This document shows positions 16,376 through 34,621 of a stretch of 64,000 nt of DNA, one piece after another. The stretch covers positions 1 to 64,000 of the forward strand of contig CADEEL010000017.1 of assembly GCA_902826335.1 (NCBI GenBank), in the 5' to 3' direction. Below the pieces are notes generated by a model. The model saw only the letters and a list, made by a program, of their open reading frames with translations, ran no database searches and had not been told where the DNA came from. The position numbers were made by a program, and so were the translations under genes. This DNA is from an uncultured Alphaproteobacteria bacterium (GTDB lineage Bacteria > Pseudomonadota > Alphaproteobacteria > Caulobacterales > Aquidulcibacteraceae). Each line of letters opens with the position of its first letter. Position 1 is the stretch's first letter.

Positions 16376-17104
16376 ATGCTTCTTGAAGTCGACGGCCTAT
16401 CCAAGAGCTTCGGTCGCCGCGCGGCCGTGGATGACATTTCCTTCGCCGTGGATGTCGGCGAAGTGGTCGGCTTTCTCGGCCCCAACGGCGCGGGCAAAAC
16501 GACGACCATGCGCATGATCGCTGGCTATCTCGAGCCCGACGCCGGCCGCGTGCGCGTCTTCAACATTGACGTCGCCGAGGATCGCGCCCGCGCCCAGCAT
16601 CGCGTCGGTTATTTGCCGGAGGGCGCCCCGCTCTATGGCGAGATGACGCCATGGACGTTTCTGCGCTTCATAGCCGAGGCGCGCGGCATGCCGAAGGATG
16701 CGGCCCGCCACGCCGTATCCCGAGCCGCGCAGGACGCCCGCCTGGGCGATAGCATCGAGCGCACGATCGAAACGCTCTCCAAGGGCTATCGCCGCCGCGT
16801 CGGGCTTGCGGCGGCTTTGCTGCACGATCCGCTTCTCTTGGTGCTGGACGAGCCGACCGACGGGCTCGATCCCAACCAGCGCCAAGCCGTGCGCGATCTC
16901 ATTCGGCGCCTCGGCAAGGAACGCGGACTTCTGCTGTCCACCCATTCGTTGGAGGAAGTCGCCGCCGTGTGCACGCGCGCGATTGTCATTCACGAAGGCC
17001 GCATCGTCGCCGATGCGCCGCCCGCCAAGCTGGCCGAGGGCCACGCCGATGGGCTCGAAGGCGCCTTCCGCGCCCTCACCGGCGGCGCGGAGACGGTGCA
17101 ATGA
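16376..17104 (+). CDS. ABC transporter ATP-binding protein, GldA-like
   Basis: A 242-residue ATPase with Walker A GPNGAGKTT (about 34-42), the signature LSKGYRRRVGLA, Walker B LLVLDEPTDGLDP and the H-loop STHS. It belongs to the ABC-2 exporter group, like GldA of the Bacteroidetes gliding machinery and the Nos/Nat-type ATPases. It is the first gene of a four-gene operon whose next gene overlaps by ATGA. The cargo is unknown; the GldA name denotes similarity of layout, not gliding. Confidence 0.88.
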   Translation: MLLEVDGLSKSFGRRAAVDDISFAVDVGEVVGFLGPNGAGKTTTMRMIAGYLEPDAGRVRVFNIDVAEDRARAQHRVGYLPEGAPLYGEMTPWTFLRFIAEARGMPKDAARHAVSRAAQDARLGDSIERTIETLSKGYRRRVGLAAALLHDPLLLVLDEPTDGLDPNQRQAVRDLIRRLGKERGLLLSTHSLEEVAAVCTRAIVIHEGRIVADAPPAKLAEGHADGLEGAFRALTGGAETVQ

Positions 17105-17835
17105 GAAGCCTTCTCGCCGTCTATCGCCGCGAAATCCTGAGCTACGCGACAACGCCGACCGCCTATGTCTTTGTCGCCGTGTTTCTGTTCGCCATCGGCC
17201 TCTTCACCTTTCAGGTCGGCGGCTTTTTCGCCGAGCGGCGCGCCGACCTCTCGGGCTTTTTCGCCTTTCATCCCTGGCTGTTCATGGTGTTCTTGCCAGC
17301 CGTCGCCATGCGCCTATGGTCGGAGGAGGCGCGCTCCGGCGCGCTTGAATTGTTGCTCACCTTGCCCGCGCCCACCTGGGCGCTCGTTGCCGGCAAATTT
17401 CTCGCCGCCTGGACCATCGCGGCCATCGCCCTCGCCCTGACGACGCCGCTCTGGATCACCGTCAATCTCCTGGGCGATCCAGACAACGCCGCCATCCTCA
17501 CGGGCTACATCGCCAGCTTACTGATGGCCGGCGCGTACATCGCCATCGGCTCGGCCATGAGCGCATTGACGCCAAGCCAAGTCGTCGCCTTCGTGCTGGC
17601 CGTACTCGCCGCGTTTCTGCTCACGGCGCTCGGCCTGCCCATGGTCAGCGATTTCGCCACGCCCTTTGTCGGCGGCGCCGTCGCCGAAGCGCTCACGCGC
17701 TTTTCGATCCTGCATCATTTCGACGCCGCCCAGCGCGGTGTGATCGAACTGCGCTCGATCTATTATTTCGGGTCTCTGGCCATTCTGTTTCTCGGCTACA
17801 CATGGCTGGCCATCGATGCACGGCGGGGCGGTTGA
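17101..17835 (+). CDS. ABC-2 type permease, GldF-like
   Basis: A 244-residue membrane protein with six hydrophobic helices, starting LLAVYRREILSYATTPTAYVF, typical of GldF/ABC-2 permeases. The EEARSGALELLLTLPAP loop after helix two is a conserved feature of this permease family. The ATG overlaps the ATPase stop codon (ATGA), so translation is coupled. It pairs with the ATPase to form the exporter core, with the next protein as the probable periplasmic partner. Confidence 0.88.
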   Translation: MRSLLAVYRREILSYATTPTAYVFVAVFLFAIGLFTFQVGGFFAERRADLSGFFAFHPWLFMVFLPAVAMRLWSEEARSGALELLLTLPAPTWALVAGKFLAAWTIAAIALALTTPLWITVNLLGDPDNAAILTGYIASLLMAGAYIAIGSAMSALTPSQVVAFVLAVLAAFLLTALGLPMVSDFATPFVGGAVAEALTRFSILHHFDAAQRGVIELRSIYYFGSLAILFLGYTWLAIDARRGG

Positions 17836-17836
17836 T

Positions 17837-19717
17837 ATGAACGGCCGTCGTTTCGCCCTCATCGTCGCCGCGTGCATCACCACGCTCTTCATCGCGACCA
17901 ATCTGATCGCCAATTCCTGGCTGCGCTTCGCGCGCCTCGATTTGACGGAGCACCACCTCTATTCCCTTTCGCCCGGCACGGCCCAAGTGCTGCGCGAATT
18001 GGAAGAACCGCTTGAGCTCACGTTCTTCTATTCACGCGAGGCCGCCGCGCGCTTTCCGGTTGTGCAGGCCTATGGCGCGCGCGTGCGCGAATTGCTCGCC
18101 GCCTATGCCGGCCGCTCGAACGGCCGCTTGCGCATTGTTGAGCGCGATCCGCGCGCCTTCACCGAAGCCGAGGACCAGGCGGTCGAAGCGGGCGTTCAGC
18201 CGGTGCCCATCCAACAGGGCGCCGATCCGATTTATTTCGGCTTGGCCGGCGCCAACGCCATCGACGATCGCCGCGCCATTCCCTTCTTTTCGCCCGATCG
18301 TGAGCCCTTCCTCGAATATGAGGTGACGCGCCTCGTCTACGAATTGCAGAACCCCGATCTGCCGCGCATAGGCCTCATCACGTCTTTGCCGCTCGATCCC
18401 GCTCTGGCGCAGGCGCAAGCCGCCATGGGCCAGGGCCAATCGCAATTCGCGCTGGAAATGGGCCGCCTGCTCGATGTCGTGGCGCTGGATCCGAGCTTTA
18501 CCTCCATCCCCGCCGACGTGGACGTGCTGGCCATTCTGCACCCCTATCCGCTTCAGCCCGCGCAGTTGTACGCCATCGATCAATTCATGCTGTCGCGCGG
18601 GCGCGCCTTCATCGCGCTCGATCCCGCCTCGATGATGGCGCTGCAGCAAAGCTTCAATCCGATGACGGGCGCGGGCGCGGCTGCGCCCGCCTCCACGCTT
18701 GAGCCGCTGCTCGCGCGCTGGGGTGTCGCCCTCAGCCCCGACATCGTCCTCGATCTGGGCGGCGCGCTGGAAATTCAGGCGCAGGACGCATCCGGCCAGC
18801 AACGCGCCATTCCCCAGCCCATGTTCTTCCGCGTCGAGGCCGAACGGCTTGACCGCGAGGATTTGATGACCGCCTGGCTGCAGCGCGGCATCAATTTCGC
18901 CACCGCCGGCGTGCTCACGATCAGCGAACGCGAAGGCCTCACGGCGCGCACGCTCGCCCGCACCACGGGCGAAACCATGCGCATCCCCGCTGAGATGGCG
19001 ATGTCTCGCCCCAACCCGATTGAACTTCTGCAAGGCTGGGCCTCGCAGAACCGCAGCGAGCCTGTCGCCGTGCGCCTCTCGGGAACCTTGACGACGGCCT
19101 ATCCAAACGGCGCGCCGGAAGGCGCGGCTGTCCCCGGCGCGCGTCTCACGCGCTCGCAGCGCCCCGCGCAGATCGTCATCGTGGCTGACAGCGATTTCCT
19201 CGCTGACGATCTCTACGTTCAGCCCCAGGGCGGCGCCTCGTTCGGCGATAACGGCGCCTTTGCATTGAACGCGCTCGATGTGCTCGCCGGCTCCGATGCG
19301 CTTGTTTCGCTGCGCTCGCGCGCGCCGAGCCTGCGGCGCATGGACGTGCTTGATCGCATGGAGGCGCGCGCCCAGCAGCGCATCCAGCAGCGCCAAAACG
19401 AATTGCAGGGCCAAATGCGCCAGACCGAGGCCCGCCTGCAGGCGCTGCAATCGCGCGGCCAGGGCTCTGGCTACTTCGCCGGAAATCTGGGCGCTGAGCT
19501 CACCCGAGAAGAGCGCGCCGAGATGGATCGCTTCCGCGCCAATCTTGCCGATGTGCGCGGCCAGTTGCGCGCCGTCGGGCGTAATCTGCGCGCCGATGTT
19601 GAACGCCTCGAAGGCTGGACGATGTTCTTCAATCTGTGGCTGCCGCCGCTCCTCGTCGCCGGCGGCGGCATCTTCTTCTTTTGGCGCCGCCAGCGTCGTG
19701 GGCAGGTGAGCCGATGA
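17837..19717 (+). CDS. GldG-like ABC transporter auxiliary protein
   Basis: A 626-residue protein anchored by one N-terminal helix (about 6-26) and one C-terminal helix (about 600-620). The large periplasmic region between them begins RLDLTEHHLYSLSPGTAQVLRELEEPLELTFFYS, the typical GldG/DUF7088 start. The next part is a GldG-type domain with FEYEVTRLVYELQ-like sequence. A Gln-rich coiled coil runs from about 520 to 560. The ATG at 17837 lies one base after the permease stop codon. Such proteins travel with GldF-type permeases in many phyla; the function outside gliding is unknown. Confidence 0.85.
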   Translation: MNGRRFALIVAACITTLFIATNLIANSWLRFARLDLTEHHLYSLSPGTAQVLRELEEPLELTFFYSREAAARFPVVQAYGARVRELLAAYAGRSNGRLRIVERDPRAFTEAEDQAVEAGVQPVPIQQGADPIYFGLAGANAIDDRRAIPFFSPDREPFLEYEVTRLVYELQNPDLPRIGLITSLPLDPALAQAQAAMGQGQSQFALEMGRLLDVVALDPSFTSIPADVDVLAILHPYPLQPAQLYAIDQFMLSRGRAFIALDPASMMALQQSFNPMTGAGAAAPASTLEPLLARWGVALSPDIVLDLGGALEIQAQDASGQQRAIPQPMFFRVEAERLDREDLMTAWLQRGINFATAGVLTISEREGLTARTLARTTGETMRIPAEMAMSRPNPIELLQGWASQNRSEPVAVRLSGTLTTAYPNGAPEGAAVPGARLTRSQRPAQIVIVADSDFLADDLYVQPQGGASFGDNGAFALNALDVLAGSDALVSLRSRAPSLRRMDVLDRMEARAQQRIQQRQNELQGQMRQTEARLQALQSRGQGSGYFAGNLGAELTREERAEMDRFRANLADVRGQLRAVGRNLRADVERLEGWTMFFNLWLPPLLVAGGGIFFFWRRQRRGQVSR

Positions 19718-20739
19718 TGCATCCGCCCAGCCCCGCCGCCGAGCGCCGCCGCAAGCGCGCGTTCACGTTCATCATCGCCGCCGCCGCGAGCCTCTTCATC
19801 GCCGCCGTCACCTTGGGCGTCGAGGCGCGCCTGGCCGCGCCCGACCGCGTCGTCGGCCGCGTCCTGCCCGATCTTGCGCGCCAGTTCGCCGACGCGCGCA
19901 CCATCCGCATCGTCAGCCGCGACGCCAATTACCGCATCGCCCGCACCGCGCAGGGCTGGGCGATGACCGATCGCGGCGATTTTCCCGTGCAAGCGCGCCG
20001 CCTCGCCGAATTGTCCGATGGCCTGCGTGGTCTAGCTTATGTGCGCCGTATGACGGCCGATCCCGCCCAGCATGAGCGCTTGGGCGTGGACGACCCCACT
20101 CAGGCCGGCGCCGGCATTCTGGTGCAAATCGAAAACGCCGAGGGCGGCTTCATCGTCAATCTCATCCTCGGCGTTACGCGCGACGCCATCTATGCGCGCC
20201 GGCCCAATGAAAATCAGGTCTGGGCCGTGCGCGGGGATTTGCCGCCCCTGCGTGACGCGGCGACTTGGCTTGATTTGACGCCGCTCGCGCTTGAAGCGCG
20301 CGAACTGCGCCGTGTGGCGATTACGCCCCCAACTGGCCCCGCTTATGTGCTTGAACGTGCGGATGGTGACGGCGATTTCGCGTTCGCGGGTCCCGCGAGC
20401 GGCCGCACGCCGATTTCAACGGCGACATTAAGCACGACGGCCTCGCGCCTCACCCGCCTCCAGCCCATCGATGTGCTGCCAGCGGCCGCGATCGCCGGCC
20501 CGCCTGCCGCGCGCCTCACGGCGACGACGGCATCCGGCGCGCAATTGAATGCCGAATTCGTGTCGCACGAAAATCGCATCTGGATGCGTTTGACGGCGCA
20601 GGGCGCCGCCGGCCCGGCGCAAACCACGGCGGACGCCGTCAACGCCCGCGCCGGCGCCTGGGCCTTCGCTCTGAGTCAGGCGGAGTATGAAGCCCTCGCG
20701 CCAGCGCTCGACAGCCTCGTGCTCGGTGCAACGCCCTAA
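19714..20739 (+). CDS. DUF4340 domain-containing protein of the Gld-like operon
   Basis: A 341-residue protein with one N-terminal transmembrane helix (about 12-35) and a periplasmic region matching the DUF4340 pattern (WAMTDRGDFPVQARRLAEL, then repeated VTRDAIYARRPNENQVW-like strands). The ATG at 19714 overlaps the stop of the GldG-like gene, and a second ATG follows at once. DUF4340 proteins regularly follow GldG-like genes and probably form part of the periplasmic assembly. It closes the operon and is convergent with the YjbR gene. Confidence 0.82.
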   Translation: MMHPPSPAAERRRKRAFTFIIAAAASLFIAAVTLGVEARLAAPDRVVGRVLPDLARQFADARTIRIVSRDANYRIARTAQGWAMTDRGDFPVQARRLAELSDGLRGLAYVRRMTADPAQHERLGVDDPTQAGAGILVQIENAEGGFIVNLILGVTRDAIYARRPNENQVWAVRGDLPPLRDAATWLDLTPLALEARELRRVAITPPTGPAYVLERADGDGDFAFAGPASGRTPISTATLSTTASRLTRLQPIDVLPAAAIAGPPAARLTATTASGAQLNAEFVSHENRIWMRLTAQGAAGPAQTTADAVNARAGAWAFALSQAEYEALAPALDSLVLGATP

Positions 20740-21093: not shown

Positions 21094-21213
21094 GAGCGAA
21101 TAATCTCATGGCTGGCCTGAAATCACCAAGTGCGATAGCGCGCTTGCCGCCCGCCGAGGGCAGCGCGCAGAATGCTCCGCCGCCGCGAGGGGGCGGCGCG
21201 GGGGTTTGGCGAG

Positions 21214-24108
21214 ATGGAAGGCGAGGCCCGCTATCGCGCCTTCATCTCCTATTCCTGGAAGGACAAGGTCTGGGGCGATCGCCTTCATCGCTGGCTGGAA
21301 AATTACCGCGTGCCCGAGGGCGTGCCCGCCGACCTCGGCCCCGCGCGCCGCCTTGGCAAATTCTTCCGTGACGATGAGGATATGGCCGCCGCCGCCGACA
21401 TCGGCGCCCTCGTGCGCGGCGCGATCGAGGACTCGCACAACCTCATCGTTGTCTGCTCGCCGAGTTCAGCCAACTCCAAATGGGTTCAGGCGGAGATAGA
21501 ACACTTCCGCGCCGCCGCGCCGCGCGGCCAGGTGTTCGCGGTCATCGTCGATGGAGAACCCAACGCGGCCGACCCAAGCCGCGAGTGTTTTCCGCCCGCG
21601 CTGCGCGTCTCGTACGATCCGAACAATCCGGCCGCCATGCCCATCGAGCCGGTCGGCATCGATTTGCGGCGGGACGGCCGTGAGCGCGTCTGCGCGCGCC
21701 TCGCGGCTGGCATGCTGCGCGTCAATTTCGATGATCTGTGGGGGCGCGATCGCCGCCGCGCTGAGCGCCGCCAGCGCACGCGCATGACCGTTCTGAGCAT
21801 CCTCACCGCCGTCTTCGCCACCTTGCTTGTTGTGGCCGCGCTGAATGCGCAATCGGCCCACCTCGCGCTCAGCCGCTTCTTCGCCGAGCGCGCCTGGCAA
21901 AGGCTTGAGCAGGGGGAGACTTTGGCTGCCGCGCGCTACGCCATCGCTGGATTTCGTCTCGCACCGCAGAATGAGCCGCTCTACCGCGCCGCGCTCGGCG
22001 CGATCATGCACACGGCCGGAGAAAGCCTGCCCCCGCTTGCCCATGACGGCGCGGTCGCGGACGCAACCCTGTCGCCAGATGGCGCACACGCCGCGACTGC
22101 GGGCCAAGATGGCGTTGTAAGGATCTGGCGAATTGCCGACGCAAATCTTGTCTTAGCGCTGCGCAGCCATGCGGGCCCCGTCACAAGGCTCGCCTATTCC
22201 GCGGATGGCGCACGTCTGGCCAGCGCCGGTGAGGATGGAACCATCCGAATCTGGACCACATCCGACGCACGAGAAAGCGCGGTCCTGCGCGGTCACAGCG
22301 GCGTCGTCGCCCTGAGCTTCCTGCCCGGCGCTCAGCGCGTCATGAGTCTTGGCGAAGACAATTCAATTCGCATCTGGGACATTAGCCGCCCCGCCGCCGT
22401 CTTCACCATTCCCGGCGGCGACACGGAGATCTGGCACGCGGCCGTCTCGCCGAACGGGCGCTGGATCGCGGCCGCGCGCGGCGACGGTGACGTGGTCATC
22501 TGCGATGCGCGCACCGGCGCACGCGTGCGGCGCTTGGCTGGCCATCGCGACGCCGTCTACCGGGCGGCGTTTTCGCCGGACAGCGCACGGCTCGTCACCG
22601 CCGGCGCCGATCGCATCGCAATTGTTTGGGCGATTCCAAGCGGGCGCCGCCTCGCCACGCTGCGCGGCCACGCGCTTGAAGTGTTCGATGCGGCGTTCGC
22701 CCCGGACGGTCGCACGATCGCCACCGCCAGCGTCGATCGTACCGCGCGCTTGTGGCGCGCGCGCGATGGACGCCCGCTCGCGACGCTCGCCGGACACGCC
22801 AATGTCGTCACCCGCGCGATTTTCACGCGCGACGGCGCCCGCGTCATCACGACGGGAGAGGATGGCGCCGCGCGCCTATGGGACGCGCGCGGCGGCGCGC
22901 CGATCGCCGTCCTGCGTGGTCATGCCGGCGCGGTGACCGCGCTTGACGTGTCCCGCAGTGGCGAAACTTTGCTTACCGCCGGCGAGGATGGAAGCGCCCG
23001 GCTCTGGTCAACGCAAGGCATGGGCGCGACCGCTAGATTATCCTTATACGGACAGAACGGATCGAGCGTCGAGTTCTCGCCAGACGGCGCGCGCCTCGCC
23101 GCCGCCGATGCAAGTGGCGCGGTGCGATTGTGGGATGCGCGCACGCTCGCGCCAGGTCGACCGATCCTCGCCCATCCAGGCGGAACAAGCGCGCTCGTCT
23201 TCTCCGCGGACGGGCGCCGCATGCTCACGGCGGGCGCAGATGGACGCGCGCGCCTCTGGGATACGCAAACCCGCCGCATGCTGCGCACGCTTGGCGATGA
23301 CGCGAACCAAGTGTCCGTCGCGAGCCTCTCCCCGGATGGCGCCCGCATCGTCACCGCGCGCCAGGATGGTCGCGCCCAAATCTGGGACGCCGAAAGCGGC
23401 CGGCCGCTTCGTACCCTGCGCGGACACACGGATATCGTGCGCAGCGCCGCCTTTTCCCCCGACGGCCGCTTCATTGTCACCAGCGGCGAAGACATGACCG
23501 CGAGGATTTGGGACGCGGCGACCGGCGCCGAGATATCCTCTCTCGAACAACATCGCCTTGGCGTCGGCGGCGCGGTCTTTTCGCCCAACGGCCAAACGAT
23601 TCTAACCTCGAGCGATGACGGGCTCGCCATTCTGTGGGACGTGCGCAGCCAGAGCGCGCGTGTCACGCTGCGCGGCCACGAGGGCGCGGTGTACAGCGGC
23701 GCATTTTCACCCGATGGCGCGCGCATCGCCACGGCGAGTGAAGATGGCGCGGCGAGAATCTGGGATGCCCGGGATGGGCGCCTGCTGGCCACGTTCGACG
23801 ATTTGGGCGGCGCGGTGTTCGGCGTCGCCTTCTCGCCAGACGCCCAAAGGCTCGCCGCAATCAGCGAGGATGGATTTGTGACCATTCTGAACGTGCGCCG
23901 GCTGAACCAATCATGGGCGGACTTGGCGGCCGACGCCTGCACGACCTTACTTGGCGCGCAGGGGCGTCGTTTCACCGAAACCGAGATCGGGTCCGATCAA
24001 TTGCTGCGCGCGGAGTGGAACAGCGCCCGCCGCGACGTGTGCGCCCGCATCCCGGGCGTTGACCCGATAAACGAGGTCCGCCGCCGCGCTGATCTGCCGG
24101 CCAACTAA
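21214..24108 (+). CDS. TIR domain - transmembrane - WD40 repeat protein
   Basis: A 964-residue protein in four parts. Residues 7-135 form a TIR-like domain (AFISYSWKDKVWGDRLHRWL). Its SPSSANSKWVQAEIEHF helix places Glu94 where NAD-cleaving TIR enzymes have their catalytic Glu. A single transmembrane helix follows at about 192-210, then a short helical linker. Next come 15 WD40 repeats of about 42 residues (276-910), most with GH...SPDG...DG..R.WD, enough for two propellers. A 50-residue tail with two Cys completes the protein. The ATG at 21214 gives the family start; an ATG at 21172 is possible. TIR-WD40 proteins are candidates for stress or anti-phage sensing, which is inference here. Confidence 0.88.
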   Translation: MEGEARYRAFISYSWKDKVWGDRLHRWLENYRVPEGVPADLGPARRLGKFFRDDEDMAAAADIGALVRGAIEDSHNLIVVCSPSSANSKWVQAEIEHFRAAAPRGQVFAVIVDGEPNAADPSRECFPPALRVSYDPNNPAAMPIEPVGIDLRRDGRERVCARLAAGMLRVNFDDLWGRDRRRAERRQRTRMTVLSILTAVFATLLVVAALNAQSAHLALSRFFAERAWQRLEQGETLAAARYAIAGFRLAPQNEPLYRAALGAIMHTAGESLPPLAHDGAVADATLSPDGAHAATAGQDGVVRIWRIADANLVLALRSHAGPVTRLAYSADGARLASAGEDGTIRIWTTSDARESAVLRGHSGVVALSFLPGAQRVMSLGEDNSIRIWDISRPAAVFTIPGGDTEIWHAAVSPNGRWIAAARGDGDVVICDARTGARVRRLAGHRDAVYRAAFSPDSARLVTAGADRIAIVWAIPSGRRLATLRGHALEVFDAAFAPDGRTIATASVDRTARLWRARDGRPLATLAGHANVVTRAIFTRDGARVITTGEDGAARLWDARGGAPIAVLRGHAGAVTALDVSRSGETLLTAGEDGSARLWSTQGMGATARLSLYGQNGSSVEFSPDGARLAAADASGAVRLWDARTLAPGRPILAHPGGTSALVFSADGRRMLTAGADGRARLWDTQTRRMLRTLGDDANQVSVASLSPDGARIVTARQDGRAQIWDAESGRPLRTLRGHTDIVRSAAFSPDGRFIVTSGEDMTARIWDAATGAEISSLEQHRLGVGGAVFSPNGQTILTSSDDGLAILWDVRSQSARVTLRGHEGAVYSGAFSPDGARIATASEDGAARIWDARDGRLLATFDDLGGAVFGVAFSPDAQRLAAISEDGFVTILNVRRLNQSWADLAADACTTLLGAQGRRFTETEIGSDQLLRAEWNSARRDVCARIPGVDPINEVRRRADLPAN

Positions 24109-24109
24109 G

Positions 24110-25015
24110 TCATCGACCCCGCGGCCGCGTTGGCTGCCGGGGCCGCCGCACGACGCGCGCGCCGCCAGAGCCCAGATCATCTCCGCCCGCTTGCGCGCGT
24201 TCGCTGACCTCATCGGGCGCATCGCCCATGAACCAGGCGACCGCTTCATAACACGCTGTGATCTGCCGCGCCGACGGGCTGTAGCGGAACTCCGCGCCCC
24301 CCGCGCCGCACCGTCGCGCCACGAGCGTCACATCGCTTGGCAGATGCACGAACTGCGAAATGTCCTCGGCGGCGTCTTCGAGTATGCCCGTCTCCGCCAG
24401 ATAAGCCTGCGCCGCGCTCAGATTCGCCGGCGCGGTCTCGTAATGCACATGGATTTGACCGCCGTTCGGATCAGCGGGCGGGATAAGACTATCCCCGAAC
24501 CAATCCTCGAGATCGGCGTCCAGCGCCTCATACTCTTCCGAACAATTCGCGGACGCGACGGAATTCCTGAACGCGCGCCCAAGGTCCGCGTAACGGCCGG
24601 GATTCGATCCGTAGAGATAGCAGGCGATCCGCGCCGCGCGCGTGGCGTCATCGGGATAGTGCGGACTTTGCGAGGGCGCCTCTTGCGCGTCCGAGCTGTC
24701 GAGCCAGCCTTGCATGGCGGCGAGAATTTCCTCGTCCTGGTCTGGCTCGTCGGGGTCCGGCAACATCAGCCACGTCGAGATATCGTCGGCTGTTTCCTCC
24801 GCACCAAGACGATCCTGGTGCTGATCCATCTCCAGCAGGAGGTCCATCAGCAAATGGCCGACTTCGTGATAGGTGAGGAACAGGAGATTGCCTTGCACAT
24901 ACCGGTCTTGCGCTTGATCGCCGGGATCGAAGCTCTGCGCAGCAGCTGGCGCGTTTCCGAACGCCAGCCCGCCCGCCAACGCCATCGCCGCCAATGTGGT
25001 CTTAAGCCGCTTCAT
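24110..25015 (-). CDS. exported DUF4344-type putative metallopeptidase
   Basis: A 301-residue protein with a signal peptide (about 1-27, ending AAAQS). Its HEVGH zinc-binding motif lies at 50-54 in FLTYHEVGHLLMDLL. The rest matches the DUF4344 pattern: ETADDISTWLM, then a Cys-containing region and QITACYEAVAWF near the end. The activity is predicted, not known. The ATG at 25015 is favoured by AAGGGGGG just upstream; the longer frame is Arg/Ser-rich. The last about 30 residues are Arg/Pro-rich. The stop lies one base beyond the end of the convergent TIR-WD40 gene. Confidence 0.8.
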   Translation of the reverse strand: MKRLKTTLAAMALAGGLAFGNAPAAAQSFDPGDQAQDRYVQGNLLFLTYHEVGHLLMDLLLEMDQHQDRLGAEETADDISTWLMLPDPDEPDQDEEILAAMQGWLDSSDAQEAPSQSPHYPDDATRAARIACYLYGSNPGRYADLGRAFRNSVASANCSEEYEALDADLEDWFGDSLIPPADPNGGQIHVHYETAPANLSAAQAYLAETGILEDAAEDISQFVHLPSDVTLVARRCGAGGAEFRYSPSARQITACYEAVAWFMGDAPDEVSERAQAGGDDLGSGGARVVRRPRQPTRPRGR

Positions 25016-32265: not shown

Positions 32266-32366
32266 GCCTAGTGTCCCGCCCGTCTCCGGGGCGCCCGTCT
32301 GGGCTGAGACGTGGGCGCGCCCACGAACCCGCCGAACCTGATCCGGTTCATACCGGCGTAGGAAGA
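32266..32366 (+). promoter_or_regulatory. TPP riboswitch (THI element)
   Basis: The element contains CTGAGA at 32304-32309 and the second conserved block beginning ACCTG at 32336 and ending GGCGTAGG at 32362, the two halves of the thiamine-pyrophosphate aptamer. P1 can form between CCTA (32267-32270) and TAGG (32359-32362). The putative Shine-Dalgarno AGGAAGAG (32360-32367) overlaps the 3' strand of P1, which suggests control of translation initiation at 32373. It governs the small membrane protein gene and, by coupling, thiC. Confidence 0.95.
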
Positions 32367-32372
32367 GCGTTC

Positions 32373-34621
<2,249 letters not shown>

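Follow-up and report, generated by a model that had tools for sequence, protein, structure and literature searches.

To our knowledge, the bacterial TIR defence proteins known so far (Thoeris, SPARTA, and TIR-STAND) sense cytoplasmic events. In the TIR-STAND group, which includes TIR-NB-ARC-WD40 and TPR proteins, an N-terminal TIR domain is combined with C-terminal propeller repeats serving as the sensor, and a NACHT/NB-ARC-type ATPase lies between the two. Animal Toll-like receptors possess one membrane helix, a cytoplasmic TIR domain, and a sensory ectodomain composed of leucine-rich repeats. The 15 WD40 repeats of Apaf-1 are arranged in propellers of 7 + 8 blades. In firmicute phages, TIR genes are paired with SLATT genes, sometimes together with a zincin-like metallopeptidase (PMC9503650), and published work predicts that the nucleotides made by TIR domains are received by SLOG and SLATT domains (PMC9503650, PMC7159879). 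DUF4344 domains occur in type IV secretion effectors of Xanthomonas (PMC6536674).

Here we analyzed a 64,000-nucleotide stretch of DNA (the window), in which the gene at 21214–24108 encodes a membrane-anchored TIR protein with WD40 repeats (the receptor). On our best reading, the receptor is a variant new within bacterial TIR systems and belongs to neither Thoeris nor TIR-STAND. Its features and those of the DUF4344 gene beside it suggest a previously undescribed envelope-sensing alarm module with a Toll-receptor-like layout. No description of this TIR-WD40 membrane architecture was found in the literature searched, most subscription journals being outside its scope, and no article joining a TIR domain, a periplasmic sensor, a transmembrane helix, and a defense system was found there.

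Domain architecture of the receptor

The receptor gene is an uninterrupted ORF on the plus strand, which runs from the ATG at 21214 to the TAA ending at 24108 and encodes 964 residues. An alternative in-frame ATG lies upstream at 21172 and would add 14 residues to give a protein of 978 residues. A scan for promoters and terminators gave nothing above chance. The domain anatomy was computed directly, and all features of the receptor are given on the plus strand. The TIR domain (residues 1–150, 21214–21663) contains the putative catalytic residue Glu94 (codon 21493–21495). The following post-TIR helices and Arg-rich juxtamembrane segment (RDRRRAERRQR; residues 151–190, 21664–21783) constitute the region of highest conservation among the orthologues (mean pairwise identity of 0.76), and the excess of Lys and Arg in this segment marks the TIR side of the membrane helix. 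The single transmembrane helix (residues 192–210, 21787–21843) has a hydropathy of 2.49 and is found at an equivalent place in 56 family members. It is followed by a helical stalk and hairpin (residues 213–268, 21850–22017; helices 172–232, 236–249, and 251–268 in the AlphaFold2 model), a first WD40 propeller (residues 270–602, 22021–23019), a second WD40 propeller (residues 604–897, 23023–23904), and a C-terminal helical tail (23905–24105). The tail has no Pfam match and contains C909 and C943, for which a disulfide is predicted; both are invariant among the 13 orthologues with 15 WD40 repeats, in which no other cysteine column beyond the membrane helix is conserved.

In Pfam, 14 stretches of the receptor matched WD40 (PF00400). 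The full-length AlphaFold2 model (pLDDT of 86.8) displayed a long helix through the predicted membrane span, then a helical hairpin, and then 15 four-strand WD40 repeats. Residues 270–602 superpose on ODA16, Rsa4, and TBLR1, which are 8-bladed propellers (approximately 330 residues, rmsd of 1.7–2.3 Å), and residues 604–897 superpose on the 7-bladed WRAP-T and WDR5 (Z of 43–47). Because of these superpositions, we read the 15 repeats of the model as an 8-bladed propeller followed by a 7-bladed one, that is, as a predicted double propeller in which both rings are closed. Apaf-1, which was among the top full-length Foldseek matches, likewise has 15 repeats in two propellers. In contrast to Apaf-1, the receptor has neither CARD nor NB-ARC, and its blade order is 8 + 7; the two double propellers are likely to be independent.

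Neither Pfam nor the full-length model disclosed a NACHT, NB-ARC, or other STAND ATPase between the TIR domain and the propellers. The Pfam search of residues 1–269 returned TIR families only, and the model has the transmembrane helix and the hairpin in the place of the ATPase. The receptor resembles the TIR-STAND (NLR-like) proteins in its N-terminal TIR domain and C-terminal propeller repeats, but differs in having a transmembrane helix where they have the ATPase, and membership in that group was rejected for this reason. The original prediction, made from the nucleotide sequence, had proposed one transmembrane helix, 15 WD40 repeats, a conserved-looking tail with cysteines, and the absence of a STAND ATPase, all of which agree with the present analysis.

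TIR domain and putative catalytic residue

Residues 1–269 exceeded the cut-offs of three Pfam families: TIR_2 (PF13676; 49.3 bits, cut-off 28), ThsB_TIR (PF08937; 34.8 bits, cut-off 21.2), and TIR (PF01582; 23.2 bits, cut-off 21.3). The AlphaFold2 model of residues 1–185, built from an alignment of 50 natural sequences, had a pLDDT of 88.5 and matched TIR domains with NADase activity, namely those of SPARTA TIR-APAZ (Z = 15.4), SARM1 (Z = 14.4), and AbTir (Z = 13.9). E94 is one of the five positions that are invariant in 50 TIR modules, whose identity to the window protein goes down to 34%, and W90 is nearly invariant in the same set. A profile alignment with PDB chains placed W90-x-x-x-E94 on the W-C-x-x-E of the flax L6 TIR domain (SxWCxxE), in which the Glu is catalytic. 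The TIR-like domain and the plausible catalytic Glu94 of the original prediction were supported by these results, and a TIR domain lacking the NAD pocket was not indicated at the level of the fold and the catalytic residue. The TLR2 TIR domain also has a Glu at the position equivalent to E94, and we know of no NADase activity of TLR2. Because TLR2 carries this Glu, E94 is compatible with enzyme activity and does not prove that the receptor is an NADase. The receptor TIR domain is probably an NAD+-cleaving enzyme.

The likeness to Thoeris ThsB, SPARTA TIR-APAZ, and AbTir-type proteins lies in the TIR fold, the position of the catalytic Glu, the best structural matches of the TIR model, and the PF08937 score above the cut-off. 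Unlike these proteins, the receptor is membrane-anchored, has predicted periplasmic propellers and a secreted-peptidase partner, and is accompanied by neither ThsA nor an Argonaute. Membership in Thoeris was rejected, as no ThsA-like SLOG effector stands beside the TIR gene in the window, where its neighbours are the YjbR and DUF4344 genes.

Membrane topology

The original prediction had left open on which side of the membrane the TIR domain lies. Across 56 family members with a recognizable membrane helix, Lys and Arg together average 5.9 in the 20 residues that precede the helix and 2.7 after it, and of the 47 cases in which the two sides differ in net charge, 45 have the higher value on the TIR side. 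Of the 56 proteins, 50 have an even number of cysteines after the helix, and so do 20 of the 21 clusters of different C-terminal types (p = 2e-5 on clusters), as expected of disulfide-bonded exported domains; before the helix, on the TIR side, the number is even in 28 proteins and odd in 28. In addition, the head composed of the TIR domain and the membrane helix is fused to an MlaD/MCE domain, a periplasmic family, at locus L098 and to an FGE-sulfatase domain at L047. Because of the charge bias, the even-cysteine signature, and the MlaD and FGE fusions, we strongly favour a single inner-membrane pass with the TIR domain predicted in the cytoplasm and the propellers in the periplasm. The partner peptidase, with its signal-peptide-like N-terminus, is predicted to be exported to the periplasm as well. 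We found nothing in favour of the reverse topology, with an exported TIR domain and cytoplasmic propellers, and it is scarcely credible: it conflicts with the charge bias, the cysteine parity, the interchangeable MlaD and FGE domains, the export signal of the partner, and the cytoplasmic location of NAD+.

With a single membrane pass between the TIR domain and the sensor propellers, the receptor-like layout proposed originally was retained. The predicted arrangement of one membrane helix, a cytoplasmic TIR domain, and a sensory ectodomain, to which the helix, the charge bias, and the cysteine parity point, is also that of the animal Toll-like receptors. In the receptor, however, the TIR domain is N-terminal and probably enzymatic, and the ectodomain consists of WD40 instead of leucine-rich repeats. 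A Toll-like receptor by descent was rejected on account of the WD40 ectodomain and the N-terminal TIR domain; the resemblance is one of layout, not of membership.

A convergent DUF4344 metallopeptidase gene

The neighbours of the receptor gene had been described as housekeeping genes, a description that failed for the gene adjacent to its 3′ end. This gene (24110–25015, minus strand) encodes a 301-residue protein with a PF14247 (DUF4344) match (E = 8e-24), a signal-peptide-like N-terminus, a YHEVGH motif, and four cysteines. The Pfam match and the HExxH zinc motif assign it to the DUF4344 zinc metallopeptidases as a secreted member with a putative proteolytic role. The C-terminal tail of the protein includes LGSGGARVVRRPR and, as in others of its type, ends in a ..LGSGGARVVRRPRQ stretch, and a ribosome-binding-site-like AAGGGGGG precedes the ATG at 25015. 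The gene lies one base from the stop codon of the receptor gene and converges with it; a shared operon is ruled out because the two genes are convergent. The protein shares the Pfam family and HExxH with the Xanthomonas effectors (PMC6536674), but it is a stand-alone secreted protein and is paired with a TIR receptor. DUF4344 was scarcely mentioned in the literature searched, and the partner had no match in PADLOC.

Gene calling at the orthologous loci showed that the sole unchanging neighbour is an opposite-strand YHExGH gene with a signal-peptide-like N-terminus, which ends at, or shortly past, the end of the TIR gene. A convergent DUF4344 gene was found at 16 of 16 intact loci with 15 WD40 repeats (the window, 14 loci from the genome_contigs set, and that of genome G106), whereas the other neighbours vary. 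The gap between the two genes ranges from −4 to 603 nt (window and 14 intact loci), and YHExGH and a downstream E..AD are invariant in 15 DUF4344 partners. Among 150 related genomes, 11 possess PF14247; it is present in eight of the nine genomes with a TIR-WD40 gene and in three of the 141 others (Fisher p = 2.8e-10). The eight are those in which the close TIR-WD40 gene is intact. In the exception, G044, the TIR-WD40 gene (L148:7776–11074) is broken by a frame change, and no HExGH ORF was found in the 18 kb around it.

The pairing itself was computed directly. It could arise if the two genes merely travelled together on a small transferable segment with no functional interaction, for a tail-to-tail pair, overlapping by 4 nt at some loci, would transfer as a unit. 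That explanation appears very improbable, since the pairing survives deep divergence, variable spacing, and different flanks, and since the genome with the frame-broken receptor gene also has no partner. The pairing holds where the TIR-WD40 proteins are approximately 45% identical and the DUF4344 proteins approximately 30% identical. The pairwise distances of receptor and partner correlate (r = 0.87–0.92), which does not by itself prove that they are in contact, as co-inheritance alone predicts such a correlation. Divergence is greater in the WD40 region (0.53) and in DUF4344 (0.56) than in the TIR domain (0.32), a pattern expected if recognition is the task of the propellers and the peptidase.

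At loci of the Hyphomonas type, an additional small ORF for a secreted acidic product, ending in ..PGGSTRPGTTPD, lies between the receptor and DUF4344 genes. An ORF of this kind, of low complexity, follows the DUF4344 gene in the gap to the TIR gene at L037, L039–L044, and L046, where most end in PGSTEES.PGGSTRPGTTPD or similar, and a variant with PGSSGTGGTGGNGRPVQDPDK occurs at L036 and L038.

Distribution and genomic context

A close TIR-WD40 orthologue is present in nine of the 150 related genomes, including the broken copy, and in one of the four sampled genomes of the same genus, and the flanks vary between loci. As computed from these genomes, the receptor is not a single-copy core gene, and the receptor and DUF4344 genes are best read as a patchily distributed accessory two-gene module. 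Association with defence islands was not borne out: a PADLOC scan of 87 neighbouring ORFs yielded no assembled defence system and no defence island around the loci, with scattered single-family matches only (ZorB/MotB-, QatD-, BrxH-, AriA-, and mad-like). Searches of phage records and of viral contigs yielded no close relative, and plasmids gave distant partial matches only (35–45% identity). Elsewhere in the window, an ABC transporter gene with GldG-like and DUF4340-like genes, identified by eye as a gliding-type ABC cluster, occupies 16376–20739 just upstream of the receptor gene and is not kept at the orthologous loci, and a TPP riboswitch (32277–32381; Rfam, 72.4 bits) precedes a thiC-like gene.

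The main rival of our best explanation is a role in envelope homeostasis or stress with no part in defence, in which the TIR domain would be a scaffold or a slow NAD enzyme in a quality circuit with DUF4344. The absence of a defence island fits this rival, as does a partner that is a secreted peptidase and has no counterpart in PADLOC, and a scaffold function of TIR domains is common among animal receptors. Patchy occurrence in the genus and the order, differing genomic positions, and the broken copy in G044 nevertheless fit an accessory conflict gene better, and the invariance of E94 in 50 divergent modules also argues against the rival, which we consider unlikely.

Proposed mechanism

Our preferred explanation, to which we assign a probability of approximately 0.5 as a whole chain, leads from the periplasmic propellers and DUF4344 through clustering of the receptor and NAD+ cleavage by its TIR domain to defence of the envelope. 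The receptor would be a single-pass inner-membrane protein with a cytoplasmic TIR domain and, in the periplasm, the 8 + 7 WD40 double propeller and the tail with the predicted disulfide, and it would work together with the secreted zinc metallopeptidase encoded tail to tail with it. We infer that the propellers bind the DUF4344 peptidase, its product, or a target cut by it, the state of which would be altered by a disturbance of the envelope or the periplasm. The altered state would cluster the receptors, and the TIR domains could then assemble via the membrane-proximal helices and cleave NAD+, resulting either in starvation of the cell or in an ADP-ribose-type messenger. The purpose would most likely be defence against phage or another attack on the envelope; such a role is likely, though unproven. 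Against this explanation we count the Glu that TLR2 shares, the outcome of the PADLOC, phage, and plasmid searches, the convergent orientation of the two genes, and the fact that co-inheritance alone would give a high distance correlation, and its topology is derived from sequence statistics. If the explanation is true, a TIR enzyme linked across the inner membrane would allow a response to an envelope attack before or during entry, and the Toll-receptor layout would have a counterpart in bacteria. A concrete entry point is provided by the conserved DUF4344 partner.

Related TIR-membrane heads and a SLOG-like neighbour

The TIR-membrane head is present in 54 of the 150 relatives and is joined to many C-termini: 15 WD40 repeats, other propellers, TPR, FGE-sulfatase, MlaD, DUF4350, and unnamed types. 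A genome of the same genus, G001, has a 608-residue ORF (L070, G001:C15) with an Arg-rich stub, the membrane helix, the stalk seen in the receptor, and WD40 repeats; because these occur there without the TIR domain, the head and the sensor behave as modules. A broader reading, which we consider less likely than not, is that bacteria possess a whole class of membrane-spanning TIR receptors with a Toll-receptor-like layout, in which a fixed cytoplasmic TIR-membrane head would carry a periplasmic sensor that can be exchanged (WD40 double propeller, other propellers, TPR, FGE-sulfatase, MlaD/MCE, or DUF4350). At least some members would have a dedicated secreted partner (the DUF4344 peptidase or a DUF3472 protein) and some would signal by an NAD-derived messenger to a SLOG-like two-TM membrane protein, and the member in the window would guard a periplasmic zinc peptidase against envelope attack. 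The interchangeable sensors offer natural variants for probing what is sensed. At L150 (7896–10185) and L151 (minus strand), a gene for a DUF4350-like TIR-membrane protein is followed by a secreted DUF3472 gene; flanked by a divergent SLOG-like gene, this pair is a possible sister module.

A family of 640–690-residue proteins with a GVTGHR motif at the N-terminus (SLOG-like) and two membrane regions is often encoded beside varied TIR genes (L032:883–2907, L033:5903–7936, L035:5904–7934, L047:5495–7546, L150, L151, L153, L154, and L155). The gene for a 675-residue member lies 62–65 nt upstream of the receptor gene in three orthologues (G041, G045, and G016). In other genomes the SLOG-like gene is 86–97 nt (G038 and G044) or approximately 2.4 kb (G083) from a TIR gene; it is a few kb from one at L047 and stands beside a different TIR-FGE protein in G010. 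The Pfam matches of the family are weak and below the cut-offs (DUF4231, 21.1 bits, cut-off 24.7; SLATT_1, 14.3 bits, cut-off 26.3), and the SLOG assignment was made from the motif only. A profile search of the PDB gave chance antibody matches only, and PADLOC had no match to the family.

These neighbours raise the possibility of a Thoeris-like system, in which a cyclic ADP-ribose-type signal made by the TIR domain would be sensed by the SLOG-like two-TM protein, opening a pore. The closely spaced genes in three orthologues and those near other TIR fusions speak for such a system, and TIR-SLATT pairs are known in firmicute phages (PMC9503650). Both those neighbourhoods and the receptor link a TIR gene to a membrane protein and sometimes to a metallopeptidase, but the receptor TIR protein itself spans the membrane, its peptidase is a convergent DUF4344, and the SLOG-like gene accompanies it in only some relatives. 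The genome of the window has one short weak match (approximately 100 residues) and no full-length homologue, and the gene is absent from most orthologues; these absences and the motif-based assignment make a Thoeris-like messenger a distinctly improbable account of the receptor as a whole. Because the match in the window genome is so short and weak, the receptor–DUF4344 pair there would have to function by itself or rely on a receiver encoded at an unlinked site. Under the preferred explanation, the adjoining SLOG-like protein could respond to an ADP-ribose-type messenger in some relatives.

The window genome (G000, 2.9 Mb) contains 13 TIR_2 matches, of which 12 exceed the curated cut-off, on contigs C3, C10, C15, C17, C18, C19, C27, C30, C33, C36, C37, and C50, and the relative G004 contains 16. 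In several of the G000 proteins, a TIR-membrane head is likewise joined to TPR or to another C-terminus.
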